64,000 nucleotides of DNA. Source: Burkholderia pyrrocinia. Lineage in GTDB: Bacteria; Pseudomonadota; Gammaproteobacteria; Burkholderiales; Burkholderiaceae. Of the stretch, positions 43,693 to 57,069 are shown piece after piece (position 1 is the first letter of the stretch; each line of letters begins with the position of its first letter). The position numbers and the translations under genes were made by a program. The DNA lies in the NCBI RefSeq assembly GCF_001028665.1, contig NZ_CP011503.1, positions 2,108,001 through 2,172,000 on the forward strand, given 5' to 3'. Under the pieces are notes generated by a model that was given only the letters and a program-made list of their open reading frames with translations, ran no database searches and had not been told where the DNA came from.

Positions 43693-45627
43693 ATGGGACA
43701 AAATCTTAAATTGACGGGTGTGGCGTTGTCGGTCGCGACGGTGTTCGGGGTATTGGCTTCGGGTTCCGCGATGGCGGGGGCCCTCGATTCGCTACCGATC
43801 CCGCAAGTCATCGTCAATCCGCCGACGAACAGCGTGTCGGTCGGGCTGGTCGCGACGGGCGCGTCGCCGCTGGGCTCGGTCACAGTGGCGGCGGGCGGGG
43901 CGGGCACGATCCAGACGTCGCTCGGCGATCCCGGCCAGGTGTTGTCGGGCGCCGTGGGGGCGGTGACGGGCGCACTCGGCGGTGGCGGCGGCACGGTGCA
44001 GCCGCTGGCGCCGGTCCAAGGCGTCGTGAATCAAGTGACGGGTGCGCTTGGTGGCGGCAACCCGGCTGGCGCGCTGACCGGTGCCCTTGGCACGGTAACG
44101 GGCGCACTGGGCGGCATCGGCGGCGGCGCGAACCCACTGGCGCCGGTCCAAGGCGTCGTGAATCAAGTGACGGGTGCGCTCGGCGGCGGCAATCCGGCCG
44201 GTGCGTTGACCGGTGCCCTCGGCACGGTCACGGGTGCATTGGGCATCGGCGGCGGCGCGAACCCACTGGCGCCGGTCCAAGGCGTCGTGAATCAAGTGAC
44301 GGGCACGCTTGGTGGCGGCAACCCGGCTGGCGCGCTGACCGGTGCCCTCGGCACGCTCACAGGTGCACTGGGTAACGTCGGCGGCGGCTCGAACCCGCTG
44401 GCGCCGATCCAGAACGTCGTCGACCAGGTCACGGGCACGCTCGGCAGCGGTAACCCCGCCGGCTCGCTGAGCAACGCGGTCAACACGATCACGGGCACGC
44501 TCGGCAACGTCGGCGGTGCAGGGAGCCCGCTCGCGCCGGTGCAAGGTGTCGTCACGCAGCTCGCCGGTACGCTCGGCAACGACAATCCGGCCAGTGCACT
44601 GACGAACGCGCTGAACTCGGTGACGGGCGCGCTTAGCGGCGCGAACCCGCTGGCACCGATGCAGGGCGTCGTGAACCAGGTCGTCGGCACGCTGTCCGGC
44701 GCAGGCGGCGGCAGCCCGATCACGCCGATCACGAACCTCGTCAACGGCCTGCAGAACGCGCTGCCGACGGGCGGCAATCCGGCTGGTGCGCTGACCGGCG
44801 CACTCGGTTCGGTGACGGGCGCGCTCGGCAACCTCGGCGGGTCGAACCCGCTGGCGCCGGTGCAAGGCGTCGTGAACCAGGTCGTCGGCACCCTCGGCGG
44901 CAGCAATCCGGCTGCGGCGCTGAGCAACGCGGTCGGCACGGCCACGAGCGCACTCGGCAATGCGGTCGGCTCCGTCGCGGGCGCGCTCGGCTCGCTGGGC
45001 GGCACGAACCCGCTGGCGCCAGTGCAGGGCGTCGTCAACCAGGTCGTCGGCACGCTCGGCAGCGGCAATCCGGCCGGTGCACTGACGGGCGCGCTGAACT
45101 CGGTGACCGGTGCCCTCGGCAACCTCGGCGGCGCGAACCCGCTGGCGCCGGTGCAAGGCGTCGTGAACCAGGTCGTCGGCACGCTGACGGGCGCGGCGGG
45201 CAACAGCCCGATCGCACCGATCACGAACCTCGTGAACGGCCTGACGGGCGGCAGTAATCCGGCCGGTGCACTGACCGGTGCGCTCGGCTCGGTGACGGGC
45301 GCACTCGCGAACGGTCCGGCGGCACTCGGCCAGGCGGCCGGCGCGCTGTCGGGCGCGGCCGGTTCGACGGCAGCGGCAGGCGGCAGCCTGCTCGGCTCGG
45401 GCGCGAACGCGGCCGGCGGCACGACGGGCGCGGTCGGCTCGCTGCTGGCGACGGGTGCCAACTCGACGGCGACGGTCGTCAATGCGGTCGGCACGTCGGT
45501 AGGCACGGCGCTCGGTTCCGCGCCGGGCCTGTCGGTGACGCCGCATTCGGGCAACAGCTCGCCGAACAACCCGCTCGCACCGGTGACGACGCTGCTCCAG
45601 TCGCTGACCGGCGCGCTGCCGAAGTAA
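43693..45627 (+). CDS. Secreted repeat protein of unknown function (PLAPVQGVVNQV repeats)
   Basis: A 644-residue exported protein. The signal peptide is cleaved after AMA (about residue 28). Residues 85-540 are a tandem array: PLAP(V/I/M)QGVVNQV begins at 104, 148, 191, 235, 279, 319, 387, 440 and 483, mostly 43-44 residues apart, each followed by GTLGGGNPAGALTGAL-type sequence. Variant units read SPI(T/A)PITNLVNGL (341, 505). The first units are nearly identical at DNA level, suggesting recent duplication. There are no cysteines and almost no charge. It is not collagen-like (no Gly-X-Y). Amphipathic helix-turn units or a surface/matrix role are guesses. Sigma-54 promoter and strong terminator flank it. 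Confidence 0.85.
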   Translation: MGQNLKLTGVALSVATVFGVLASGSAMAGALDSLPIPQVIVNPPTNSVSVGLVATGASPLGSVTVAAGGAGTIQTSLGDPGQVLSGAVGAVTGALGGGGGTVQPLAPVQGVVNQVTGALGGGNPAGALTGALGTVTGALGGIGGGANPLAPVQGVVNQVTGALGGGNPAGALTGALGTVTGALGIGGGANPLAPVQGVVNQVTGTLGGGNPAGALTGALGTLTGALGNVGGGSNPLAPIQNVVDQVTGTLGSGNPAGSLSNAVNTITGTLGNVGGAGSPLAPVQGVVTQLAGTLGNDNPASALTNALNSVTGALSGANPLAPMQGVVNQVVGTLSGAGGGSPITPITNLVNGLQNALPTGGNPAGALTGALGSVTGALGNLGGSNPLAPVQGVVNQVVGTLGGSNPAAALSNAVGTATSALGNAVGSVAGALGSLGGTNPLAPVQGVVNQVVGTLGSGNPAGALTGALNSVTGALGNLGGANPLAPVQGVVNQVVGTLTGAAGNSPIAPITNLVNGLTGGSNPAGALTGALGSVTGALANGPAALGQAAGALSGAAGSTAAAGGSLLGSGANAAGGTTGAVGSLLATGANSTATVVNAVGTSVGTALGSAPGLSVTPHSGNSSPNNPLAPVTTLLQSLTGALPK

Positions 45628-45732: not shown

Positions 45733-45803
45733 TTGGTTTCCCGCTTTCTTTCGTCACATGAATGGCCGATAACGTGCCGCCGCCGATCGTCGCCGGGCGG
45801 CAT

Positions 45804-45831
45804 GGAATAACCGGCCGCTCCCGTCCGTTTA
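45804..45831 (+). promoter_or_regulatory. Candidate ECF-type promoter
   Basis: GGAATA (45804-45809) and CGTTTA (45826-45831) are separated by 16 bp, resembling the GGAA / CGT pattern of many ECF sigma promoters. It lies about 110 bp before the first gene of the unit that encodes an ECF sigma factor, suggesting autoregulation. Confidence 0.45.
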
Positions 45832-45938
45832 CATACCGAGTCCCGGCACGACCGCCCGGCGGGATAATGGTCGCGACGAAGCCGATCATCCCGTCCGGCG
45901 CCGCCGTGTCGCGATGCCATGTCAAAAGGAGAACGGGA

Positions 45939-46298
45939 ATGAAACGGATTTTCCTCGCCGCTGCGCTGATGGCGGCGATCGTGCGGCCGGCGGCCGCGGA
46001 ACCGCCACAGGTCGGCGACGGGAAACTGGTCGACGAAGATCACATGACGCTGTACGTGTTCGATCGCGACGCGCCCGGCAAGAGCGCGTGCGACAGCGCG
46101 TGCGCGGCCAACTGGCCGCCCGCGATCGCCGACGCGTACGACAAGGCGTCGGGTGCGTGGAGCCTCGTCACGCGCGGCGACGGCAAGAAGCAATGGGCGT
46201 ACCACGGGCGCCCGCTGTATCGCTGGAAGATGGACCACAAGGCCGGCGACGCGGGCGGCGACGGGATCGGCGGCATGTGGCACGTTGCGCGTCCGTGA
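45939..46298 (+). CDS. Secreted COG4315-type protein (Lipoprotein_15 repeat)
   Basis: A 119-residue exported protein. A signal peptide ends at AAA (about residue 20), without a lipobox Cys. It has two copies of the family's YxWxxD-type motif: LYVFDRDAPGKSACDSACA and LYRWKMDHKAGD. The two close cysteines may form a disulfide. Members are periplasmic and of unknown function, and are often encoded with ECF sigma factors. A good AAAGGAGAACGGG ribosome site precedes ATG 45939. It is the first gene of the sigma-factor unit (25-bp gap to the sigma gene). Confidence 0.82.
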   Translation: MKRIFLAAALMAAIVRPAAAEPPQVGDGKLVDEDHMTLYVFDRDAPGKSACDSACAANWPPAIADAYDKASGAWSLVTRGDGKKQWAYHGRPLYRWKMDHKAGDAGGDGIGGMWHVARP

Positions 46299-46323
46299 CC
46301 GCGCGGCGCCGCGCGAGGCATCG

Positions 46324-46839
46324 ATGAGCTACGAATCGGACCTGCTGGTGTGGCTGCCGCATCTCACGCGCTATGCGCGTGCGCTGACGGGCGACCGGGC
46401 CTGGGCGGACGATCTCGTGCAGGACACGCTCGAGCGTGCGCTGAACCGTCCGCCGCGCGACGGCGGCAACCTGCGGGCGTGGCTGCTGACGCTGCTGCGG
46501 CACCGCTTCATCGACCAGTTGCGTGCGCGGCACGAGATCGCGGTCGACGACGCGACCGCGCCGTGGCAGACGATGGCCGCGCCGGCCGGCGAGATCGGCG
46601 GGCTGGTGCTGCGCGACGTGCAGCGCGCGCTGTACCGGCTGCCCGTCGAGCAGCGCGAGGTGCTGCTGCTGGTCGCGCTCGAGGAGTTGAGCTATCGCGA
46701 CGCCGCGCAGGTGCTGGGCGTGCCGGTGGGAACGGTGATGTCGCGGCTCGCGCGGGCGCGCGGGCAGATGCGCGCACTGCTGTCGGACGAGCCGTCGGCG
46801 CACGGCACAACCACGTTACGGGTAATCAGGAAGACATGA
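46324..46839 (+). CDS. ECF RNA polymerase sigma factor
   Basis: A 171-residue sigma factor with only regions 2 and 4. Region 2 reads LTRYARALTGDRAWADDLVQ and FIDQLRARH; region 4 reads LPVEQREVLLLVALEELSYRDAAQVLGVP with the helix-turn-helix VGTVMSRLARARGQMR. The stop overlaps the anti-sigma start (ATGA), so the two are coupled. It probably directs transcription of this unit from the promoter near 45804. The inducing signal is unknown; the copper-type and envelope proteins downstream hint at metal or oxidative stress. Confidence 0.92.
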   Translation: MSYESDLLVWLPHLTRYARALTGDRAWADDLVQDTLERALNRPPRDGGNLRAWLLTLLRHRFIDQLRARHEIAVDDATAPWQTMAAPAGEIGGLVLRDVQRALYRLPVEQREVLLLVALEELSYRDAAQVLGVPVGTVMSRLARARGQMRALLSDEPSAHGTTTLRVIRKT

Positions 46840-47618
46840 TGGACGAACCGCGCAAGCCTTCGAAGGATCGGGACGACGATGCGTCGGCGCAACTGCTGTC
46901 CGCGTTGCTGGACGGCGAACTGTCCGGGCACGAGCGGCAGGAGATGCTCGAACGCCTGCAGTCCGATCCGGAGGAAGCCGAACGATTCGCGCATTACCGC
47001 GCACAGCGCCATGCGCTGCATGCGCTGTTTCCGTTGCCGAACGCTGCGCCCGCGCTGTTCGTGCAGCGCCGTGCGTCGCGCCGGCGCGGGTTCGCGTATG
47101 CGTTCGCGGGGCTGGCGGCCGGGCTGCTGATCGGCGTCGCGCTGCATGCGGGCTGGGCCGTGTTCGGCAGCGAACCGGCGTTCGCCGCGCGTGCGGATGT
47201 CGCGTATGCGGTGTACACAGCCGATCGCGAGCATCCGGTCGAGGTCGGCGCGGGCGATCCTTCGCACCTTGCCGCGTGGCTGTCGGCACGCGTCGGGCGG
47301 CCCGTGCGTGCGCCGTCGCTCGACGAATACGGCTATGTGCTGCTGGGCGGCCGGTTGCTGCCCGGCGAAGCGGGGCCGGCCGCGCAGTTCATGTACCAGC
47401 GCGCGGACGGCGAGCGCGTGACGCTGTACATGACCGCGTACGACGCGCGGCACCTCGCGCCGCAGGCGATGTCGGCCCATGGCCGCTACACGTATTTCTG
47501 GTCGGATCGCGGCATGGGTTATGCGATGTCCGGCCGCGGCGACGAACGGCGCCTGCGCGAGCTCGCGATCGAAGCGTGCGGCGCGCTCGGCGGCTCGACC
47601 GATGCATGGAAAGGATGA
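46836..47618 (+). CDS. Transmembrane anti-sigma factor
   Basis: A 260-residue membrane protein. The cytoplasmic N-terminus contains LLSALLDGELSGHERQEML (20-38), typical of the sigma-binding helix of RseA-like anti-sigma factors. No zinc HxxxCxxC is present. One membrane helix (about 86-106) leads to a periplasmic domain of about 150 residues with VLLGGRLLPGEAGPAAQFMY. It overlaps the sigma gene by 4 bp. ATG 46839 is a possible alternative start. Confidence 0.88.
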   Translation: MMDEPRKPSKDRDDDASAQLLSALLDGELSGHERQEMLERLQSDPEEAERFAHYRAQRHALHALFPLPNAAPALFVQRRASRRRGFAYAFAGLAAGLLIGVALHAGWAVFGSEPAFAARADVAYAVYTADREHPVEVGAGDPSHLAAWLSARVGRPVRAPSLDEYGYVLLGGRLLPGEAGPAAQFMYQRADGERVTLYMTAYDARHLAPQAMSAHGRYTYFWSDRGMGYAMSGRGDERRLRELAIEACGALGGSTDAWKG

Positions 47619-47646
47619 CGCGCACGGTGCCGGCAGGGAGCAGGCG

Positions 47647-48072
47647 ATGAAGAAGACGAAGATTCTCGTGCTGATGCCGCTGCTGGCGGCGCTCGCCGTG
47701 GGTGCCCCGCTCGCGCGGGCTGACGGCGCCGCGCCGGTGCGCGTGCCGGTCGATGCCGACGGCGTGCAGCGGGTGACGATCGTCGGCGGCAGTTATTTCT
47801 TCCGCCCGAACCACGTGATCGTGCGCGCGCACGTGCCGGTCGAGCTGACCGTGTCGGCCGAGCCCGGTGTCGTGCCGCACAGTTTCGAGATCGACGCGCC
47901 GCAGGCCGGCATCGCAGTCCACACGGATCTCGCCACGACGCCGAAGACCTTTCGCTTCACGCCGGCGCAGCCGGGCCGGTTCGCCTACTATTGCACGCAT
48001 CGGCTGCTGTTTTTCAGGAGCCATCGCGAGCGCGGGATGGAAGGCGTGCTCGACGTCGAGGCGGCGCCGTGA
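47647..48072 (+). CDS. Periplasmic cupredoxin-like protein
   Basis: A 141-residue exported protein (signal cleavage after ARA, about residue 25). It has a cupredoxin fold with probable copper ligands His78 (VPHSFE), Cys116 (YYCTHR), His126 (RSHRE) and Met131 (RGMEG). The Cys-to-His spacing of ten residues is longer than in classical plastocyanins. It may carry electrons or bind copper in the periplasm. It follows the anti-sigma gene by 28 bp and its stop overlaps the next start. Confidence 0.85.
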   Translation: MKKTKILVLMPLLAALAVGAPLARADGAAPVRVPVDADGVQRVTIVGGSYFFRPNHVIVRAHVPVELTVSAEPGVVPHSFEIDAPQAGIAVHTDLATTPKTFRFTPAQPGRFAYYCTHRLLFFRSHRERGMEGVLDVEAAP

Positions 48073-48701
48073 TCGCCGCGTTGCTGGCCGCGAGCCTGAT
48101 AGGAGCGAGCATGACAGCCGATCCCGTGACCGTCGCGCAGGCGCATTTCGACCACGTCCGCTCGTACCGCGCGACGATCCGCTCGTCGGCGCGCGGCGGC
48201 GAACACACCGAAATCCGTTACGCGTACCTGAAACCCGGCTTCGTCCGGATGGATTTCGTGTCGCCTCATCACGGCGCGGTAATTGCATACGATCCCGACG
48301 ACGGCAAGGTGCGGCTGCGCCCGTTCGGCGCGCATGCGCCGCCCGCGCTGACGCTGTCGCCGTCCAATCCGCTCGTGCGCGACCGCAGGGGCCACCGGGT
48401 CGACCGGTCGGACGTCGGCGAACTGCTGCGCAACGTTCATGCGCTGCAGGAGGGCGGTGCGACCGTGACCGAAGGCGAGGAGGCCGTCGGCGGCCGGACC
48501 GCGCTGCGCGTGTCGGTCACGGGCGCGCCCGCGCATGCGGTCGACGGCGTGCATCGCTACCGGCTGTGGCTGGACGCCGAGGACGGCTTTCCGCGGAAGG
48601 TCGTCAGCTTCGCGGACGACGGCGACGTGCCGCTCGAAACCGTGACGCTCGACGATATCGAGATCGACGTCGCGTTTCCCGAGCGTTTCTTCGCGCCCTG
48701 A
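48069..48701 (+). CDS. DUF1571/LolA-like exported protein
   Basis: A 210-residue protein starting at GTG 48069, coupled to the cupredoxin gene (GTGA overlap). A short hydrophobic N-terminus (IAALLAASLIGAS) suggests export. The rest is beta-rich with the LolA-like pattern VRSYRATIRSSARGGEHTE, KPGFVRMDFVSPHHGAV and VHRYRLWLDAEDGFPRKVV. LolA-fold proteins carry lipoproteins or lipids in the periplasm; the specific role here is unknown. Confidence 0.72.
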   Translation: MIAALLAASLIGASMTADPVTVAQAHFDHVRSYRATIRSSARGGEHTEIRYAYLKPGFVRMDFVSPHHGAVIAYDPDDGKVRLRPFGAHAPPALTLSPSNPLVRDRRGHRVDRSDVGELLRNVHALQEGGATVTEGEEAVGGRTALRVSVTGAPAHAVDGVHRYRLWLDAEDGFPRKVVSFADDGDVPLETVTLDDIEIDVAFPERFFAP

Positions 48702-48745
48702 TCGGTGCGCTGACTCATGTCCCTGACGCGCATGCCGGAGGCTGC

Positions 48746-49261
48746 ATGGCGGAATACCGGTTCTCGACGACCTGGCGTGTGGACGCCCCGCTCGCGGCGG
48801 TCTGGGACGCGATCTACCAGGTCGACCGCTGGCCCGACTGGTGGAAGGGCGCGGTACGCACCGTCGAGATCGAGCAGGGCGACGCGCACGGCGTCGGCGC
48901 ACTGCACCGATACACGTGGAAGGGTGCGCTGCCGTACCGGCTGACCTTCGACATGCGCGTGCGGCGTGTCGAGCCGCCGCATGCGCTCGAAGGCCGCGCG
49001 AGCGGCGCGATCGAAGGCGACGGATGCTGGTCGTTCGCCGGCGACGGCGCATGCACCGTCGTGCGCTACGACTGGCACATCCGCACGCACGTGCGCTGGA
49101 TGAACTGGCTGGAGCCGTTCGCGCGCCCGCTGTTCCGATGGAATCACGACGTCGTGATGCGCGAAGGCGCGAAGGGTCTCGCGCGGCTGCTGGGCGCGGC
49201 GGTCGAGACGGAGGGCCGGACCTTCCGGCCGCTGTCGGGCGCGGGCTGCGCCGATGCGTGA
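48746..49261 (+). CDS. SRPBCC family protein (polyketide cyclase/START-like)
   Basis: A 171-residue cytoplasmic protein with the N-terminal FSTTWRVDAPLAAVWDAIYQ and WPDWWKG typical of the SRPBCC hydrophobic-pocket fold, ending in helix VMREGAKGLARLLG. Members bind lipids, polyketides or other hydrophobic ligands. It follows the LolA-like gene by 44 bp and is probably the last gene of the sigma-factor unit. It converges with the iron ABC genes. Confidence 0.82.
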   Translation: MAEYRFSTTWRVDAPLAAVWDAIYQVDRWPDWWKGAVRTVEIEQGDAHGVGALHRYTWKGALPYRLTFDMRVRRVEPPHALEGRASGAIEGDGCWSFAGDGACTVVRYDWHIRTHVRWMNWLEPFARPLFRWNHDVVMREGAKGLARLLGAAVETEGRTFRPLSGAGCADA

Positions 49262-49297: not shown

Positions 49298-50347
49298 TCA
49301 GCGCGCGTACGCCATCGCCGCACCGTCGACGACGAGCGCGACGCGTTCGCCGACGGCCGGGCACCGGTGTCCCGGCACGCGTACGCGCACGAATACGTCG
49401 GCATCGGCATCGAGGCGCGTGAGAACGTCGGCGTCCTGGCCCGCGAACTGCGCGGCTTCGACGCGCGCCGTATGGCCGCGCGCCGCATCGACCTGCGCGA
49501 CAGGCACGATGCCGATCTGCTCGGGGCGCAGCATCGCGTCGGCCGGCCCGTCGGGCAGCGGCGCGACGAGCGGCAGCTCGCCGAGCGCGCACGCGATGCG
49601 CCCGCCGCGCACACGGCCCGCGAGCAGCACGGCCTGCCCGACGAACGACGCGATGTCGCGCGTGACGGGCTGCCGGTACAGCGTCTGCGGCGCGGCCGTC
49701 TGCACGAGCCGGCCTTGCCACATCACAGCCACTTCGTCGCCGAGCGTCATCGCCTCGGGCTGGTCGTGCGTGACGAGCACCGAGGTCGCGCCCGCCGCGG
49801 CGAGCGCATCCGCGACCGCGCTGCGCGTTTCGTGCCGCAGCGACGTGTCGAGCGCGGAGAACGGTTCGTCGAGGATCACGAGCGACGGCTCGGGCGCCAG
49901 CGCGCGTGCGAGCGCAACGCGCTGCTGCTGCCCGCCGGACAGTTGCTGCGGCGCGCGGCTCGCATACGACGCGGGCAACCCGACCATCTCGAGCAGTTCG
50001 TCGACGCGATGATGGCGCCGCCGCGCCGCGCGCGGCAGCCCGAACGCGATGTTGTCGGCCACCGACAGATGCGGAAACAGCGCGCCTTCCTGCGGCACGT
50101 AGCCGATCCGGCGCTGTTCGGGCGGCAGGTGCACGTCGGGCGCGGCCACGCGTCGCCCGTCGATCTCGACGGTGCCGCGCTCGGCGCGCTCGAAGCCGCA
50201 CAGCACGCGCAGCAGCGTCGTCTTGCCGCTGCCGGACGGGCCGAGCAGCGCGAGGCGCGAGCCGCGCCGCACGGTGAGGTCGATGTCGTGCAGGACGGTA
50301 TGCGATCCGAACGATTTGGACAGGCCGTGGATGCGTAGTTCGCTCAT
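49298..50347 (-). CDS. ABC transporter ATP-binding protein, iron(III) type (FbpC-like)
   Basis: A 349-residue ATPase. Walker A is GPSGSGKTT, the ABC signature LSGGQQQR, Walker B LVILDEPFSALD, and the switch His is in LVTHDQPEAM. A C-terminal regulatory TOBE-like domain (about 240-349) contains LRPEQIGIVP. It is the last gene of the operon and lies 28 bp after the permease gene. Together with the adjacent permease and binding protein it forms an FbpABC-type importer energised at the inner membrane. Confidence 0.92.
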   Translation of the reverse strand: MSELRIHGLSKSFGSHTVLHDIDLTVRRGSRLALLGPSGSGKTTLLRVLCGFERAERGTVEIDGRRVAAPDVHLPPEQRRIGYVPQEGALFPHLSVADNIAFGLPRAARRRHHRVDELLEMVGLPASYASRAPQQLSGGQQQRVALARALAPEPSLVILDEPFSALDTSLRHETRSAVADALAAAGATSVLVTHDQPEAMTLGDEVAVMWQGRLVQTAAPQTLYRQPVTRDIASFVGQAVLLAGRVRGGRIACALGELPLVAPLPDGPADAMLRPEQIGIVPVAQVDAARGHTARVEAAQFAGQDADVLTRLDADADVFVRVRVPGHRCPAVGERVALVVDGAAMAYAR

Positions 50348-50375
50348 GAGCGGTTCCGGGGGAAAAGGGTGGCGC

Positions 50376-51974
50376 TCAGTTGCGTACCGACGCGCGGCCG
50401 AGCAGCAGGAACAGCAGTCCCGACGCGCCCAGCGACAGCGCGACGAGCAGCGCTGCATAGGGCGCCGCAGCCGCGAACGCGAGCGTTGCGGTATCGCTCC
50501 ACACCTGTGTCGCGAGCGTACGCGTACCGATCGGCGACAGCAGCAGCGTCGCGTTGAGTTCCGTCACGACCGAGATGAACACCATCGTCGCGGCCGCGCC
50601 GAGGCCGGGCGCCGCGAGCGGCAGCACCACGCGCGTGAGCGTCGCGCGCCAGCCGAGGCCGAGCGAACGCGCGGTTTCCTCGAGCCGGACCTGCACGTGC
50701 GACAGCGCCGCGCGCACGCTGACCACCGCGAGCGGCAGGAACAGGATCGCGTACGCGCCGACGAGCGCCGGCGCGCTCTGGTAGAGCTGCTGCACCAGCC
50801 GTACCGTGATCGACACGATCGCGAGCGCGACGACGATGCCCGGCACGCCCTGCACGGTCATCGCCGTGCGTTCGAGCAACGTCGCGACGCGGCCCGGATA
50901 ACGAACCAGCAGGAATGCGAGCGGCAGCGCGAGCAGCGTCGTGACGGCTGCGGCCGCGAGGCCGTAGCCGGTCGACGCGAGCGTGGCCTGCCACAGCAGC
51001 TCGGGCGATACGTCGGCCGGCGTGACGGCGGCCGCGCCCTGTTGCGTGAGCCAGTAGCCGATCATCGCGAGCGGCACGCCGAGCGTCGCGGCCGCGAGCG
51101 CAGCGAACGCAATGGTGGCGGGGCCGCGCAGCGGCCCGAGCGGATAATGCATCGCGACGCGGCGAGCGGCGCGATGCGTATGGCCGTAGCGCGCATGGCC
51201 GCGCGCACGCGCCTCGATCGCGAGGCACAGCAGGCACAGCGCGATCAGCACGCAGCCGAGCAGCGATGCGCCGCCGCCGTCGAACGCGGTGCGGTATTCC
51301 GCATAGATCTCGGTCGTGAACGTGCGAAAGCGCAGCAACTGGAACGCGCCGAATTCGGACAGCACGCCGAGCGCGACGAGCAGCATCCCGCCGCACAGCG
51401 CGGGGCGCAACTGCGGCAGCACGACGCGAAAGAACGTATGCCACGGCGAGCAGCCGAGCGTGCGCGCGCTTTCTTCGAGCGCGGGGTCGAGCTCGCGCAG
51501 CGCGGCGGCCATCGGCAGGTAGACGAGCGGGAAGTACGCGGATGTCAGCACGATCAGCGCGCCGAGGAAGTCCTGCAGATCGAGGCTCAGCGACACCCAC
51601 GCATAGCTCGTGATGAACGGCGGCACCGCGAGCGGCGCGGCGGCGAGCGCGGTCCACAGCGGCCGTGCCGGCAGGTCGGTGCGCTCGATGAACCACGCGA
51701 CTGCCGTGCCGAGCAGCGTGCACGCGAGGGTCGCGGCGAGCGTGATCGACAGCGTGTTGACGAGCAGTTCGCCGACGAGCGGGCGCCACAGCAGCTCGAT
51801 CGCGTCGTCGACGCCGAAGGTCGCCGCGCGATACAGCGTGAAGCCGAGCGGCAGCAGGATCGCGAGCGGCCCGCATGCGGCCGCGGCGACGAGCGCGCGC
51901 GACGGGCGCCGCCGCGTCGCGGTGCGCTCGCCGTCGCGCGCGGTGCGTGCCGTGCGGGACACGGCGTCGCTCAT
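50376..51974 (-). CDS. ABC transporter permease, iron(III) type (FbpB-like, fused)
   Basis: A 532-residue inner-membrane protein with two homologous permease halves (each about six helices), as in FbpB/SfuB. Each half has an EAA loop: EESARTLGCSPWHTFFRVVLP (first) and EETARSLGLGWRATLTRVVLP (second), which couple to the ATPase. The N-terminus is Arg-rich and cytoplasmic. It starts 2 bp after the binding-protein gene ends, showing a tightly linked operon. Confidence 0.92.
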   Translation of the reverse strand: MSDAVSRTARTARDGERTATRRRPSRALVAAAACGPLAILLPLGFTLYRAATFGVDDAIELLWRPLVGELLVNTLSITLAATLACTLLGTAVAWFIERTDLPARPLWTALAAAPLAVPPFITSYAWVSLSLDLQDFLGALIVLTSAYFPLVYLPMAAALRELDPALEESARTLGCSPWHTFFRVVLPQLRPALCGGMLLVALGVLSEFGAFQLLRFRTFTTEIYAEYRTAFDGGGASLLGCVLIALCLLCLAIEARARGHARYGHTHRAARRVAMHYPLGPLRGPATIAFAALAAATLGVPLAMIGYWLTQQGAAAVTPADVSPELLWQATLASTGYGLAAAAVTTLLALPLAFLLVRYPGRVATLLERTAMTVQGVPGIVVALAIVSITVRLVQQLYQSAPALVGAYAILFLPLAVVSVRAALSHVQVRLEETARSLGLGWRATLTRVVLPLAAPGLGAAATMVFISVVTELNATLLLSPIGTRTLATQVWSDTATLAFAAAAPYAALLVALSLGASGLLFLLLGRASVRN

Positions 51975-51976
51975 GC

Positions 51977-53011
51977 TCAGAGCAGGCCGGCCTGGCGCAG
52001 CAGCTTGCCGGCCTGGCTATCGTCGCCGAGCTGTTCGAACGTCAGCGCCGGCGGGCTCAGTTCGCTGAACGGCTTCAGGATCGGGTCGGGTGCGACGCCC
52101 GGGTGCAGCGGATACTCGAAGCTGATGTGGCCGCCCGCCATCAGCTTCTGCGCGCGCTCGCTGACGAGATACTCGACGAACTTCTGCGCGTCGGCCTGGT
52201 GCTTCGACGCCTTCAGCACCGCGGCGCCGGACACGTTGACGGCCGCGCCGACGTCGTGATTGCCGAAGTGATGGATCGCGCTCTTGGTCGACTTGTCGCC
52301 GAGCTCGGCGTGCAGGCGGTCCCAGTAGTAGTTGTTGACGATGCCGGTCAGTACGCCGCCGCGGTTGACGGCCGCCGTCACGCCTTCGTCGTCGTCGAAG
52401 ATCTGCGCATTGGTCTTCAGGCCTTTAAGCCATTGCAGCGTCGCGGCCTCGCCGTGCAGCGCGAGCACCGCGCTCACGAGCGGCAGGAAGTCCGCATCGC
52501 TCGGCGCGACGCCGACCTTGCCTTTCCATTCGGGCTTCGCGAGATCGAGCAGCGATGCGGGCAGTTGCTGCGGCTGGAGCTTCGCGGTGTTGTAGATGAG
52601 CACGTTCTCGCGCGCGAGCACACCGACCCAGTTGCCGTCGGCCGGGTTGAAGCGCGCGGGCACCGCCTGCAGCGCGGCGCCGTCGGTCTTCGCGAGCAGG
52701 CCCTTGCGGTCGAGCAGCACGAGCTCGGGCGAGTTCTCGGTGAAGTACACGTCGGCCGGCGTGCGGTCGCCTTCCGCGACGAGCTGCGCGGCGAGCGCCG
52801 GGCCTTCGCCCGAGCGCACCTTCACGGTGATGCCGCTCTGCGCTTCGAAGTCCTTGACGAGCTGGTTGACGACCTGCTCGTGCTGCGCGTTGTACAGCGT
52901 GAGCGTCGCGGCATGCGCGCGCGTGACATGCAGCGCGCCGGTCAGCATGAGCGCGGCGGCGGCCGCGGAGATCAGGTGCCGCAGCGGGCGGCTAACGGGT
53001 GAGGTGTTCAT
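51977..53011 (-). CDS. Periplasmic iron(III)-type binding protein (FbpA-like)
   Basis: A 344-residue exported protein (signal cleavage after AHA, about residue 34). The mature N-terminus TLTLYNAQHEQVVNQLVKDF and TPADVYFTENSPELV are typical of the ferric-iron binding protein family, and a tyrosine pair (VNNYYWDRL, about residue 225) occurs where FbpA has its iron-binding tyrosines. It would hand Fe3+ to the permease. It lies 71 bp after the peroxidase gene in the same operon. Confidence 0.9.
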   Translation of the reverse strand: MNTSPVSRPLRHLISAAAAALMLTGALHVTRAHAATLTLYNAQHEQVVNQLVKDFEAQSGITVKVRSGEGPALAAQLVAEGDRTPADVYFTENSPELVLLDRKGLLAKTDGAALQAVPARFNPADGNWVGVLARENVLIYNTAKLQPQQLPASLLDLAKPEWKGKVGVAPSDADFLPLVSAVLALHGEAATLQWLKGLKTNAQIFDDDEGVTAAVNRGGVLTGIVNNYYWDRLHAELGDKSTKSAIHHFGNHDVGAAVNVSGAAVLKASKHQADAQKFVEYLVSERAQKLMAGGHISFEYPLHPGVAPDPILKPFSELSPPALTFEQLGDDSQAGKLLRQAGLL

Positions 53012-53082
53012 GTCGTCGTCGTGGGTTGCATCCGGACGGGCCGGGAAAAGGGTGCGTCGTGTGCCGTCGTGCCGATGCGTCG

Positions 53083-54390
53083 TTACGCTTCGAACAGCGC
53101 GGCGCCGATGTACGAACCGGGTTGCGCGCCCGGCGGGCACGCGAAGATCGCGCTGCCGACGTGCGTGGTGAACTGGTTCATGATGTCCAGCTTCGCGAGC
53201 TTCTCGTTGATCGGGATGAAGCCCTTGCGCGGGTCGCGCTGGTGCGCGACGAACATCAGCCCCGCGTCGTACTCGGTCTGCTGGCGCCACGGCGGCCAGC
53301 GCTCGATGTAGAAGTTCGCGCTGTCGTTGTACGAATACGCGCGGCGCAGGATCTGCGCGCCGTTGTTGAGCTGCGGCGACGCGAGACGCGCGTGCGCGTT
53401 GTCGGGGATCACCGAATTGCCGTCCTTGTCGACCGCGTCGAGGTCGAGCGCTTCGAACTCCTGCTTGCCGCCGAGCGGCGCGCCGCTGTACTTCTTGCGG
53501 CCGAACACCTGCTCCTGGAAACCGAGCTCGGTGTTGTCCCAGTGTTCGAGCGTGATGCGGATGCGGCGCACGACCGTATAGGTGCCGCCGTTCATCCACG
53601 CCGGGCCTTCGCTGCCGGCCCACACGAATTCGTTCATCGCGGCCGGGTCGTCGCGCGACGGGTTCATCGTGCCGTCCTTGAAGCCCATCAGGTTGCGCGG
53701 CGTCTCGCCCGGCTTGCCGGACGTGAAGCCGGCCTGGCCCCAGCGCATCTGCACGGCCTTGCCGCCGAGACGCACGAGCTGGCGCACCGCATGGAACGCG
53801 ACCTGCGCGTCGTTCGCGCATGCCTGGATGAACAGGTCGCCGCCCGTCTTCTCCGGAATCAGCTGGTCGCCGTTGAAGCGCGGCAGGTCGACGAGCGCGG
53901 CCGGGCGCCGCTTCGCGAGGCCGTAGCGGTCCTTGCCCGCGACCGCGAACAGACCGGGCCCGAAGCCGAACGTGATCGTGAGCCGCGACGCGCCGATGCC
54001 GAGCGCGTCGCCCGAGTCGGCCGGCACCGCGTCGTCGCCGCCGGTCGTCGGCAACGGCTGCGCGGTGTCGCCGCGGGCCATGCGCGCGGCCGCGTCGGTC
54101 CATGTCTTAAGCAGCGCGATCACGTCCGCGCGTTTGTCGGTCGCGAGGTCGAGCGCCGCGAAATACGCGTTGCGCTGCTGCGGCGTCACGATGCCGCTTT
54201 GGTGCTTGCCGTAGAACGGCTCGAGGTCGTCGTCGTGCGCGTGTGTATCCGCGGCGGCCGGGCTGGCGGCATCGGCCGCGCGCGCGGCCGGCATCGTGCC
54301 CGCTGCGAGGCCCGCGGCCACCGCCGCGCCGCCGGCCTTCAGGAAGCCGCGGCGCGCGGGGCGCGACGGCGGGTTCAGATCGTCTGCCAT
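53083..54390 (-). CDS. efeB: Dyp-type haem peroxidase, EfeB/deferrochelatase type
   Basis: A 435-residue periplasmic haem enzyme exported folded by Tat: RRGFLKAG (13-20) is the twin-arginine signal. The DyP signature GFKDG is at residues 236-240 (in NLMGFKDGTMNPS), followed by the haem-pocket segments. EfeB works with EfeUO in E. coli, where it oxidises Fe2+ and may extract iron from haem. Here it is followed instead by an FbpABC importer, so it may supply Fe3+ to the binding protein. It starts 11 bp downstream of the beta-propeller-type gene. Confidence 0.9.
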   Translation of the reverse strand: MADDLNPPSRPARRGFLKAGGAAVAAGLAAGTMPAARAADAASPAAADTHAHDDDLEPFYGKHQSGIVTPQQRNAYFAALDLATDKRADVIALLKTWTDAAARMARGDTAQPLPTTGGDDAVPADSGDALGIGASRLTITFGFGPGLFAVAGKDRYGLAKRRPAALVDLPRFNGDQLIPEKTGGDLFIQACANDAQVAFHAVRQLVRLGGKAVQMRWGQAGFTSGKPGETPRNLMGFKDGTMNPSRDDPAAMNEFVWAGSEGPAWMNGGTYTVVRRIRITLEHWDNTELGFQEQVFGRKKYSGAPLGGKQEFEALDLDAVDKDGNSVIPDNAHARLASPQLNNGAQILRRAYSYNDSANFYIERWPPWRQQTEYDAGLMFVAHQRDPRKGFIPINEKLAKLDIMNQFTTHVGSAIFACPPGAQPGSYIGAALFEA

Positions 54391-54401
54391 GGTCGGCTCC
54401 G

Positions 54402-55535
54402 TTACTTCGCGAGCATCAGCGTGTTGACGTCGTCCTGGACGTAATAGAAACCGTCACCCTCGGGCGTCATCGCGATCCCGAACAGGTCGCCGTTGCCCGG
54501 CGGTGATTGCGCCTTGTCGGTGTCGATCCAGCGTGCATAGAGCTGCTTGCCGGCGGCCGGATCGATCTCGACGACCTGGCCGTTCAGCGCATTGGTCGCG
54601 AGCAGGTGGCCGTTCGGCGCGGTCGCGAGCGCGAGCGGGCGGCGCAGGAAGCCGTCGGCCGTGACCTGGCGGCCCACGCCCGCGCTCGTGTCGCGCGTGA
54701 GCGGATCGTCGATCTCGACGATCCGGTTGCCGATCGCGTCCGACACGTACAGCTTCTTCTGGTCGCCCGACAGCGCGAGGCCGGTCGGGCCGACGAGGAA
54801 CACGCCCTTGTCGGCCTGCGCGCCGAGGCCGCTCGCGACGACCGTTTCCTGCTTGATGACGGGCGGCTTGCCGGCCGGCACGTCGACGTCGAGGCGCAGC
54901 ACGGTCGCCTGCTTGTAGACGGGCGGGTTGCCGTCCGCGCCGCCGACGCCGAAGCCGGCCATGCTGACGAACAGCGTCGCGCTGTCGCCGCGGTCGACCA
55001 CGGCCATGTTGCCCCACGGGTCGTTGATGTTCGGGCTCGACCACGTCGATGCGATCTTGCCTTGCGGATCGAGCACGATCAGGCAGCCGGCGCCCTTCGT
55101 CGACGTCGTGCCGTCGTTGCTCGGCGTGCTGCCGACGATCACCCAGCCCGACTTCAGCATCGTCATCGCGGTCGACAGGCCGACGCCGCCGGGGCACGCC
55201 TTCAGGTCGCGCGGAATCGACGCGAACAGGCTCATCTGCTTCGTCGACGGCCGGTAGTTGACGATCGTGCTGCCGGTGCCCTGCAGGTTCGCCGCGTTGT
55301 TGAAGTTGTCGACGAGCACGTCGCCGGCCTGGATCGTGCCGGCCGACACCGGCGCGACCGCGATCGCGTACGGGTTCTGGTCGCCGTTGTCGGGCACCGT
55401 GTTGACGAGCAGCGTATGGCGATGCAGCGTCTCGAGGAAGCCTTGCGGCTCGGCGAACGCGCCGGCGGCGGCCGTCAGCGCGGCGGCGGCCAGTGCGCCC
55501 GTCGCGAGGCGGCGAAGCGGGGCGGATTGAATCAT
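54402..55535 (-). CDS. Exported beta-propeller (NHL/YncE-like) protein of unknown function
   Basis: A 377-residue exported protein (signal cleavage near AFA, about residue 28). Repeated blade-like segments such as GPTGLALSGDQKKLYVSDAI, GNRIVEIDDP and RPLALATAPNGHLLATNALN indicate a beta-propeller. No enzyme motif is visible. It is encoded between the porin and the peroxidase in the Fur-linked operon, so a role in iron binding, as peroxidase partner or as a porin-associated periplasmic factor is possible but unproven. Confidence 0.78.
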   Translation of the reverse strand: MIQSAPLRRLATGALAAAALTAAAGAFAEPQGFLETLHRHTLLVNTVPDNGDQNPYAIAVAPVSAGTIQAGDVLVDNFNNAANLQGTGSTIVNYRPSTKQMSLFASIPRDLKACPGGVGLSTAMTMLKSGWVIVGSTPSNDGTTSTKGAGCLIVLDPQGKIASTWSSPNINDPWGNMAVVDRGDSATLFVSMAGFGVGGADGNPPVYKQATVLRLDVDVPAGKPPVIKQETVVASGLGAQADKGVFLVGPTGLALSGDQKKLYVSDAIGNRIVEIDDPLTRDTSAGVGRQVTADGFLRRPLALATAPNGHLLATNALNGQVVEIDPAAGKQLYARWIDTDKAQSPPGNGDLFGIAMTPEGDGFYYVQDDVNTLMLAK

Positions 55536-55602
55536 CGGGGTCTCTCCTGGGGGACGCGCCGCCGCAGCGGCGCGCGAAAAACGGGGTGCGTGTGCGCGGC
55601 GC

Positions 55603-57069
55603 TCAGAACGTGATCGTCGTGCGCGCACCGAGCACGAACGTGTTGCGCAGCGGCTGGGTCGCGTCGCTCGGGTTCTGGCCCGCGCCGGCGTTGAAGGTGT
55701 ACTGCGCGTCGGCCGCGATCACCCACCACGGGTTGACCTGGTACTGGTAGGTCGCCTCGACGGTCGTCTCGCGGGTGCGCACGCCGTACGGGCCGGTCGC
55801 GAACGACCGCGCGGCCCGGTCGAGGTCGGTCACGTGGCTGCCGACCTGGATGTACGTGACGGCGAGGCCGACGCTGTCGTTGTCGCGGCCTTCGAACGGC
55901 GCCTTCAGCACGATGCCGGCGTTGGCCGCGAGGCTGACGAGGTTGCGGTCGCCCGGCGCGCCCATCACGCGCGCGAACACGCCGAGGCTCCTCGGGCCGG
56001 TCGGGTCGGGGCGCCAGATCATCTGGTCGGCCACCGCGTAGAAGCTGTAGTCGCCGTGATGCTGCTGTGCGCTGCCGTTCGACGCGGGATCCGAGAGCGA
56101 CAGCCCGTCGGTGCCGACGCTCTGGTCCGCGAAGCGGCCGTTGTGATACCAGACGCCGATCTTGTAGGTGCCCGGCAGCCCGTTCGAGCGGCCGGTGTCC
56201 ATTTCGCCGTCTGACGGCTGGTTCAGCGCGTACTGCAGTTCGCCGATGTAGAGCGCGCCGTTGTGCAGGTTGAAGTTCGTGCCGCGCAGGTTGTTCGGGT
56301 TGTTGCCGAGCGGATCGCCGTCGAACACGCCCGCGAGCGCGGTGAGCTTCGGCGTGATCTGTGCGCGCACGCGCACGCCGAGGCCGGCGAGCGGATAGGC
56401 GGGGCCGCCATTGGGCAGGTCGTACGACGGCAGCGCGGGCCAGCCGAACATCGTGTTGACGAACGTGTTCGCATACGTGCTGACCATGAATTCCTGGTCC
56501 AGGCTCTGCTGGCCGATCTTCACGTCGACGCGCTTGTCGAGGAACGACTGCTGGTACCACAGCTCCCACAGGCGCGTCGTGCCCTGCGCCTCGATGCCGC
56601 TCGCAGTGTTGAGCGTGCCGAGATTCCTCGCGCTCAGGTTGGTGCCGTGAATCTGCAGCGCGCTGACGTTGAACGTGCCGCCGGGCAGGCCGATCGCCTT
56701 CTGCGTATCGACCGTCAGCGTCGCCGTCGTCAGCCCGTCGTACGCGCCCCCGCGGTTCAGGCCGCCGCGCAGGTTCGCGAGGTATTCGCTGGTTTCGGTG
56801 ATCTGCAGCGTCGCGCCGTACTTGCCGAGCCACGGGCGGATGCCGCCCATGTCGCCGAGCAGGCTCTGGCGCGTCCAGATGCCGGTCCACATGTTGGTCG
56901 GCTTCGCCTGGATCGCGAGGTCGGCCTCGGGCGCTTCGGGCTGCGCGTCGACCGGCGTGGCGGCGAACGTGGCGCCGCTCGCGAACGATGCGCAGGCGAG
57001 GACGGCCGCAAAGGCGGCGGGGCGCATCCGGGCGCGGATGCGGTCTCCGTGGAACGACACGAACTTCAT
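55603..57069 (-). CDS. OprB-type outer-membrane porin
   Basis: A 488-residue porin related to the carbohydrate-selective OprB family: N-terminal WTGIWTRQSLLGDMGGIRPW and KYGATLQITETSEYLANLRG, a long beta-barrel with alternating aromatic strands, and a C-terminal Phe (TTITF), the outer-membrane insertion signal. It is the first gene of the iron operon behind a Fur box. It could pass an iron complex passively instead of using a TonB receptor (inference). A better signal peptide begins at Met15 (57027), so the true start may be there. Confidence 0.87.
   Translation of the reverse strand: MKFVSFHGDRIRARMRPAAFAAVLACASFASGATFAATPVDAQPEAPEADLAIQAKPTNMWTGIWTRQSLLGDMGGIRPWLGKYGATLQITETSEYLANLRGGLNRGGAYDGLTTATLTVDTQKAIGLPGGTFNVSALQIHGTNLSARNLGTLNTASGIEAQGTTRLWELWYQQSFLDKRVDVKIGQQSLDQEFMVSTYANTFVNTMFGWPALPSYDLPNGGPAYPLAGLGVRVRAQITPKLTALAGVFDGDPLGNNPNNLRGTNFNLHNGALYIGELQYALNQPSDGEMDTGRSNGLPGTYKIGVWYHNGRFADQSVGTDGLSLSDPASNGSAQQHHGDYSFYAVADQMIWRPDPTGPRSLGVFARVMGAPGDRNLVSLAANAGIVLKAPFEGRDNDSVGLAVTYIQVGSHVTDLDRAARSFATGPYGVRTRETTVEATYQYQVNPWWVIAADAQYTFNAGAGQNPSDATQPLRNTFVLGARTTITF

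Follow-up and report, generated by a model that had tools for sequence, protein, structure and literature searches.

The minus strand of a 64,000-nucleotide stretch of the Burkholderia pyrrocinia genome (the window; the genome comprises 7.96 Mb on four contigs) carries a six-gene operon that joins an OprB-family porin, an exported beta-propeller protein and an EfeB-type DyP peroxidase to an importer of the FbpABC type (Table 1). The original prediction had described these genes as a one-strand set of six families, and open reading frame coordinates together with domain profiles confirm this description; the intergenic gaps calculated from the coordinates are, from porin to ATPase, 67, 11, 71, 2 and 28 bp. 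In an annotated public record of P. largidicola the genes appear as a carbohydrate porin, a hypothetical protein, efeB, an iron ABC transporter binding protein and permease, and an ABC ATP-binding protein, the propeller being the only one without a name. No description of this six-gene operon was found in the literature by titles and the beginnings of abstracts, with most subscription papers beyond the reach of the search.

Table 1. Features of the operon, its upstream region and its neighbours (positions in the window)
Feature	Position	Strand	Basis or remark
OprB-family porin, outer membrane, 488 aa	57069-55603	minus	PF04966, 334.4 bits against a curated cut-off of 22.9
Exported beta-propeller protein, 377 aa, without assigned function	55535-54402	minus	Predicted model; signal peptide read from sequence
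Tat-exported DyP peroxidase, EfeB type, 435 aa	54390-53083	minus	DyP N and C domains; TIGR01412; RRGFLK Tat-type motif
FbpA/HitA-type ferric-ion-binding protein, 344 aa	53011-51977	minus	PDB relatives; several SBP domains
FbpB-type fused two-domain ABC permease, 532 aa	51974-50376	minus	PF00528 (BPD_transp_1), two stretches
FbpC-type ABC ATPase with TOBE domain, 349 aa	50347-49298	minus	PF00005 (ABC_tran) and PF08402 (TOBE_2)
Predicted Fur-type operator TGCGAATCATTCTC	57222-57209	minus	139 bp upstream of the porin ATG; degenerate pattern match
Sigma-70-type promoter-like site, TTGACT-17-TACGAT	57201-57173	minus	Directly downstream of the operator; consensus scan
Convergent cluster	45762-49261	plus	
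644-aa protein	43693-45627	plus	No Pfam match

Relatives of the operon were taken as the best 80 of 207 matches from one genome-contig scan with the propeller as query, and they fall into two sets, L003-L019 (17 loci) and L020-L082 (63 more distant loci, with seven records titled Burkholderia). The record titles name Burkholderia, Paraburkholderia, Caballeronia and Trinickia; by propeller, the closest named loci are those of Burkholderia sp. BCC1644 and B. arboris (98%), followed at 97% by a Burkholderia sp. MAG and by B. cepacia LK29, and records very near the window's own may be missing among these. All six genes were matched in 77 of the 80 relatives, the remaining three being cut by contig ends, and in all 77 the order and strand were identical, with the porin at the head; the fbpC match was partial in two of these loci (L058, at a contig end, and L039, covering residues 117-349). 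Paraburkholderia xenovorans LB400 (L026) is one of the strains with all six genes. This figure of 77 is conditional on the presence of the propeller, by which the loci were chosen. A single order of the six families recurs across these genomes, which is more than chance. Of the 17 loci in the first set, 10 have groES/groEL within the stretch; in the second set none does.

Upstream of the porin gene lies a putative Fur operator, which is the single exact match of the degenerate Fur-type pattern in the whole window. The same pattern was found between -450 and +60 bp of the porin start in 72 of the 80 relatives, whereas the rest of these loci, 1251 kb, held no exact match; five of the eight relatives without it have a one-mismatch version and three have neither (L008, L032 and L065). 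The pattern was written after the sites had been seen, so that the 72/80 partly reflects that choice, whereas the zero background and the footprint described below do not; because, in addition, the loci are related, no probability is attached to the count. In a footprint of 55 loci of L020-L082 (those having a site with 60 bp to either side), conservation was seen at the operator, at TTGAC and at a TACGAT-type hexamer, but not in most of the flanking columns. The promoter consensus scan found two sites where 0.4 were expected. A 19-mer Fur consensus proved too loose to be used, the window site having seven mismatches to it, the same as 15 places in all, and one place having six. The conserved operator-like site at the promoter, together with its footprint, speaks for the predicted Fur link, and we infer that Fur binds there. 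In L032 (Candidatus Burkholderia crenata), matches to the propeller, the DyP and FbpABC are kept; the match to the porin, at 59% over residues 41-434, is a divergent one.

The closest solved relatives of the binding protein are HitA (8k7n, a ferric ABC binding protein), SfuA, YfuA and FbpA (best E-value 1.7e-77), and its residues H44, E92, Y228 and Y229, which we take to correspond to the ferric ligands of Haemophilus FbpA, are kept in 81/81 matches among 101 loci searched. According to domain profiles it is accompanied by a fused permease and a TOBE-type ATPase, as in FbpABC ferric importers; proteins of the FbpA type generally accept iron in the ferric, not the ferrous, state. A phosphonate, thiamine or other importer was considered and set aside: the NCBIfam equivalogs listed fell below cut-off for all three ABC proteins, the ATPase doing so for the ferric and the 2-aminoethylphosphonate models alike, and the binding protein's best PDB relatives are ferric-binding proteins. 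Since the FbpA ligands and the DyP catalytic residues (below) are kept in all matches, iron is the best-supported substrate, as the original prediction had it and as the Fur-type operator and the solved relatives also indicate.

The peroxidase scores 460.5 bits against a cut-off of 428 on the NCBIfam EfeB model, and D239 (in GxxDG), H333 and R349, presumably its catalytic residues, are kept in 97/97 matches among the same 101 loci. DtpA structures are among its solved relatives, and EfeB homologues have been proposed as Fe2+ oxidisers (PMC8197335). Burkholderia DyP proteins appear in the accessible parts of the literature in a positive-selection table, as an immunogenic protein and through an H2O2-sensitive mutant, none of them traced to this locus. 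The window's genome has a second DyP gene (G000:C3:396692-397084, L002), whose best match to the operon DyP is 28% identical.

For the porin, the only solved relatives at an E-value of 0.01 were those of Porin B (4gey/4gf4). No TonB receptor fits between the six genes, because neighbouring matches are at most 466 bp apart in all six-gene loci (the flanks were not scanned for one). The original prediction had put the porin in the place of a TonB receptor. Its constant position at the head of the operon agrees with this, and there are precedents, in that meningococcal use of ferric pyrophosphate requires FbpABC and not TonB (PMC4189776) and a mutant of the OprB-type Slr1908 contained about 40% less iron (PMC8707739); by this reading iron would enter by the operon's porin. 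A second OprB-type porin, 59% identical, is encoded at G000:C2:2052397-2053845 (L198, L199), and in the 18.5 kb around it there was no match to any of the other five operon proteins.

No Pfam family reaches its cut-off with the propeller; SMP-30/gluconolactonase (PF08450) scores 22.6 against 26.3 bits. Its predicted model (pLDDT 79.7, pTM 0.83) has a beta-propeller fold, as in the SMP-30/gluconolactonase family, with the RPA3624 lactonase and NHL and DFPase-type propellers as the closest folds; E. coli YncE, which to our knowledge is not linked to a peroxidase or to FbpABC, was also among the fold matches. The propeller is the best-conserved member of the set in 63/63 loci of L020-L082, in 15 of 18 loci of f50 (a family known only as belonging to the same phylum as the window's genome, outside its class) and in 8 of 15 of L003-L019. 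The idea that it is the most conserved part everywhere fails within L003-L019, where the median identities of fbpB (96.1) and fbpC (95.8) exceed that of the propeller (95.0). A paralogous propeller, 38% identical, adjoins a beta-lactamase-fold gene at G000:C2:1397231-1398271 (L087, L089), and similar matches of 35-41% recur in the family survey.

We propose that the operon is a Fur-repressed iron-uptake route combining porin entry, oxidation by the DyP and import by FbpABC, with the propeller as a hub, and we give this reading a probability of roughly 60%. When iron is short, Fur would come off its operator and transcription of the six genes would begin. The dedicated OprB-family porin would admit Fe2+ or small complexes of ferric iron, on a route that is probably TonB-independent, and with H2O2 the periplasmic DyP would convert Fe2+, or the iron of a reduced chelate, to Fe3+. 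FbpA would bind this and FbpBC import it, together filling the role that EfeO and EfeU have in EfeB systems, and the propeller would most likely be a periplasmic hub positioning the peroxidase or the iron complex. The operon, the operator, the ferric-type FbpABC, the peroxidase residues and the export signals are supported by sequence. Porin entry, Fe2+ oxidation and the role of the propeller are deduced, and single steps are plausible by analogy with other systems in which they have published support (PMC8707739, PMC4189776, PMC8197335).

To judge by its sequence, the importer half resembles FbpABC, HitABC and SfuABC, with an H-E-Y-Y binding protein, a fused permease and a TOBE-type ATPase that would take ferric iron from the periplasm; unlike in those systems, an OprB-family porin, a propeller and an EfeB-type peroxidase precede it in one operon with a Fur-type operator. 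With EfeUOB (YwbLMN, staphylococcal FepABC) the operon shares a Tat-exported, Fur-linked DyP of the EfeB equivalog together with an iron importer (PMC8197335), but none of the six proteins matches FTR1 (EfeU) and no EfeO domain occurs among them; FbpABC takes the place of both, for EfeU as originally predicted, and the porin and propeller are additions. The two FTR1 matches of the window's genome lie elsewhere on C1. In Synechocystis, too, an OprB-family porin (Slr1908) is tied to iron uptake in a cell that has a periplasmic ferric-binding ABC importer (Fut), but the cyanobacterial porins have SLH domains, and the available text of that source mentions no DyP or propeller partner (PMC8707739). 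YncE is likewise an exported beta-propeller and is under Fur control (PMC5120174); unlike the operon propeller, it is seven-bladed and a reported single-stranded DNA binder, and the likeness is one of fold. The FtrABCD system of Burkholderia and Bordetella also takes up iron without siderophores, and in Bordetella and Brucella this involves an oxidation (PMC5681537), but the six proteins include neither its cupredoxin nor its FTR1-type part; the convergent neighbouring cluster has a gene for a weak cupredoxin-like protein. Streptomyces DtpA is a DyP that matures a secreted oxidase, GlxA, through copper oxidation (PMC8197335); the operon differs from this pair, GlxA being a copper radical oxidase and the comparison being one of sequence conservation only.

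The distribution of the operon within Burkholderia is patchy. Among 31 Burkholderia genomes, 15 have a propeller orthologue, four only the paralogue of about 38% identity, and 12 no match. The flanking polyketide-cyclase-type gene was located in 14 of the 16 genomes without an orthologue, and in 14/14 groES was close by with no operon between them. Remnants occur at this empty site in G744 (L149; a short fbpC) and G568 (L150; fbpC and porin), and they show that the operon was lost in at least these lineages; the clean sites could also be ancestral.

Several observations weigh against the proposed route, beginning with the separation of porin, propeller and DyP (the trio) from the importer. In G773 (L177), fbpA, fbpB and most of fbpC are deleted, and the porin, propeller and DyP remain at 92-99% identity without internal stops; G553 also has the trio and no FbpABC in the stretch, so that neither has an intact fbpABC beside the trio (in the locus stretch; the rest of these genomes was not searched). 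Further away, the propeller was matched in 4 of 398 genomes sampled across the phylum, the window's own among them, and one of these (G345) belongs to f50, where 34 of 150 genomes have it. We examined 22 f50 loci, 20 from one survey plus L088 and L171. The DyP is adjacent to the propeller in 20 of them and the porin in 18, and in 17 the stretch lacks any fbp gene of this type. The full trio is present in 13 of these 17, the other four being L134 and L139 (without porin), L135 (in which the DyP was not found) and L140 (cut by a contig end); together with L137 and L171, the stretches in which no porin was found are four of the 22. Functional points lie on the same side. The solved entries nearest to the DyP, which we take to be Streptomyces enzymes, are labelled deferrochelatase, with E. 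coli EfeB/YcdB more distant. In meningococci the outer-membrane route was not found, and single loss of PorA or PorB was without effect (PMC4189776). A B. cenocepacia DyP mutant was among the most depleted under H2O2, which also fits a stress role (PMC10846046; gene not traced to the operon), and our literature search found no expression or growth data for the operon.

The f50 loci also bear on what the trio itself may be. In the five where fbp genes adjoin the propeller, the order is fbpABC-porin-propeller-DyP (L131), propeller-DyP-fbpABC (L137), fbp-propeller-DyP-porin (L141, L145) or fbpABC-propeller-DyP (L171), so that in four of five, unlike in the Burkholderiaceae, the fbp genes precede the propeller. 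The genomes of the 13 full-trio loci without adjacent fbp genes hold a HitA-type FbpA elsewhere in five cases, only a distant FbpA in one, and no FbpA match at an E-value of 1e-40 in seven. A Fur-type site with at most one mismatch precedes the first gene in 13 of 21 f50 loci (three exact; 0.015 expected per stretch from the rest of the loci; gene starts approximate, L141 excluded), and 10 of these 13 have no adjacent fbp gene. A HitA-type FbpA (54-63% identity) occurs in 13/34 f50 genomes with the propeller versus 3/116 others (Fisher test, 1.8e-7, uncorrected for relatedness; seven genomes with only a distant FbpA of 38-43%, one of them with the propeller, counted as negative). FTR1/EfeU was tried as the trio's alternative partner and rejected, as it exceeded cut-off in 10/34 genomes with and 46/116 without the propeller (Fisher test, 0.32), which is no association. 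HitA-type FbpA and FTR1 rarely co-occur in f50 (FTR1 in 1/16 FbpA genomes versus 55/134; p = 0.006), possibly reflecting phylogeny. A TonB receptor in place of the porin was considered from a scan of ten neighbouring proteins: upstream of the L137 propeller lie two genes, for a kumamolisin-type protease and an FAD protein, and the trio of L142 has one TonB receptor at a distance of about 2.8 kb, on the opposite strand.

Because the trio occurs without neighbouring FbpABC, and often with a near-Fur site, these results suggest that it is itself the iron-linked unit. The porin-propeller-DyP combination looks like the core of the system, which shifts the emphasis from the six-gene set to the trio. 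The original view of the six genes as one pathway holds in so far as the combination is kept in 77 loci, but the set is not indivisible, as 13 of the 22 f50 loci as well as G773 and G553 hold the trio without an intact adjacent fbpABC. The trio might even be a module of its own, not described before, that lets iron in oxidatively under Fur control and without TonB and would plug into FbpABC in certain bacteria and into other importers elsewhere, with the propeller as the central working part, handling the iron complex between porin and peroxidase; we put this forward tentatively, at somewhat less than even odds.

Other roles for the peroxidase have to be weighed against the proposed route. It may attack the chelator instead of free iron: phenolic or catechol ligands that bring in ferric iron by way of the porin would be destroyed oxidatively and Fe3+, the form that suits an FbpA-type protein, released to FbpA, while the propeller would bind the iron-chelate. 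We consider this unlikely: DyP enzymes, those of class I included, have been assayed on aromatic dyes (PMC8197335), and the conservation of the propeller throughout L020-L082 is what a ligand-binding part would display, but no ligand site was identified and there is no siderophore gene among the six. The depleted B. cenocepacia mutant, the trio without adjacent fbp genes, and the naming of EfeN (deferrochelatase/peroxidase) in the legend of a figure that deals with P. xenovorans proteins of the oxidative response (PMC10983741; not traced) would all suit a DyP that clears periplasmic peroxide near loosely bound iron, with the porin and propeller as envelope parts and FbpABC alone transporting iron. 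This is quite unlikely, however, as near-Fur sites also precede f50 operons without adjacent fbp genes and the dedicated porin is left unexplained.

A DyP acting as a deferrochelatase, as the NCBIfam family name (deferrochelatase/peroxidase) has it, would take iron from haem and pass it to FbpABC. We regard this as improbable and haem as a weaker option than Fe2+ oxidation, given that the activity has been called controversial (PMC8197335), that a sugar-sized OprB pore would be an unlikely entrance for haem, and that the six include no gene for a haem receptor or a haem ABC system. It is true that FbpABC and the trio are also found apart and that each part is of known fold, as would be expected if an ordinary FbpABC operon simply lay beside three unrelated Fur-regulated genes; this absence of any joint mechanism is nevertheless the least probable reading, in view of the one order in all six-gene loci, the joining of the same parts in other arrangements in f50 (fbp first in four of the five linked loci) and the strong genome-wide co-occurrence there.

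The Fur-repressed route proposed above would make the operon a candidate siderophore- and TonB-independent iron route wherever a lineage has kept it. How B. cenocepacia acquires ferrous iron is a question raised by a review of iron acquisition in Burkholderia, which concludes that most pathogenic species have no Feo (PMC5681537). For strain J2315 the operon does not provide the answer at this site, because the gene numbering goes directly from groES (BCAL3147) to the next flanking gene, the polyketide cyclase BCAL3148 (PMC3155924). The operon allows a direct test of whether an FbpABC importer can be supplied by way of an OprB-family porin and an EfeB-type peroxidase; the natural losses, including G773 with the trio and without the importer genes, are ready comparisons, and a conserved propeller without a function gains a concrete context.

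The convergent cluster next to the operon contains a secreted Lipoprotein_15-type gene, an ECF sigma factor and a weak anti-sigma match (below cut-off), besides the weak cupredoxin-like protein and DUF1571-like and polyketide-cyclase-type proteins. Its gene names and order resemble those of J2315 BCAL3153-BCAL3148, which were reported to be over-expressed in a derivative obtained by amikacin selection (PMC3155924). The 644-aa protein encoded beyond it has a repeated Ala/Gly-rich motif (NPLAPVQGVVNQVTGALGG).

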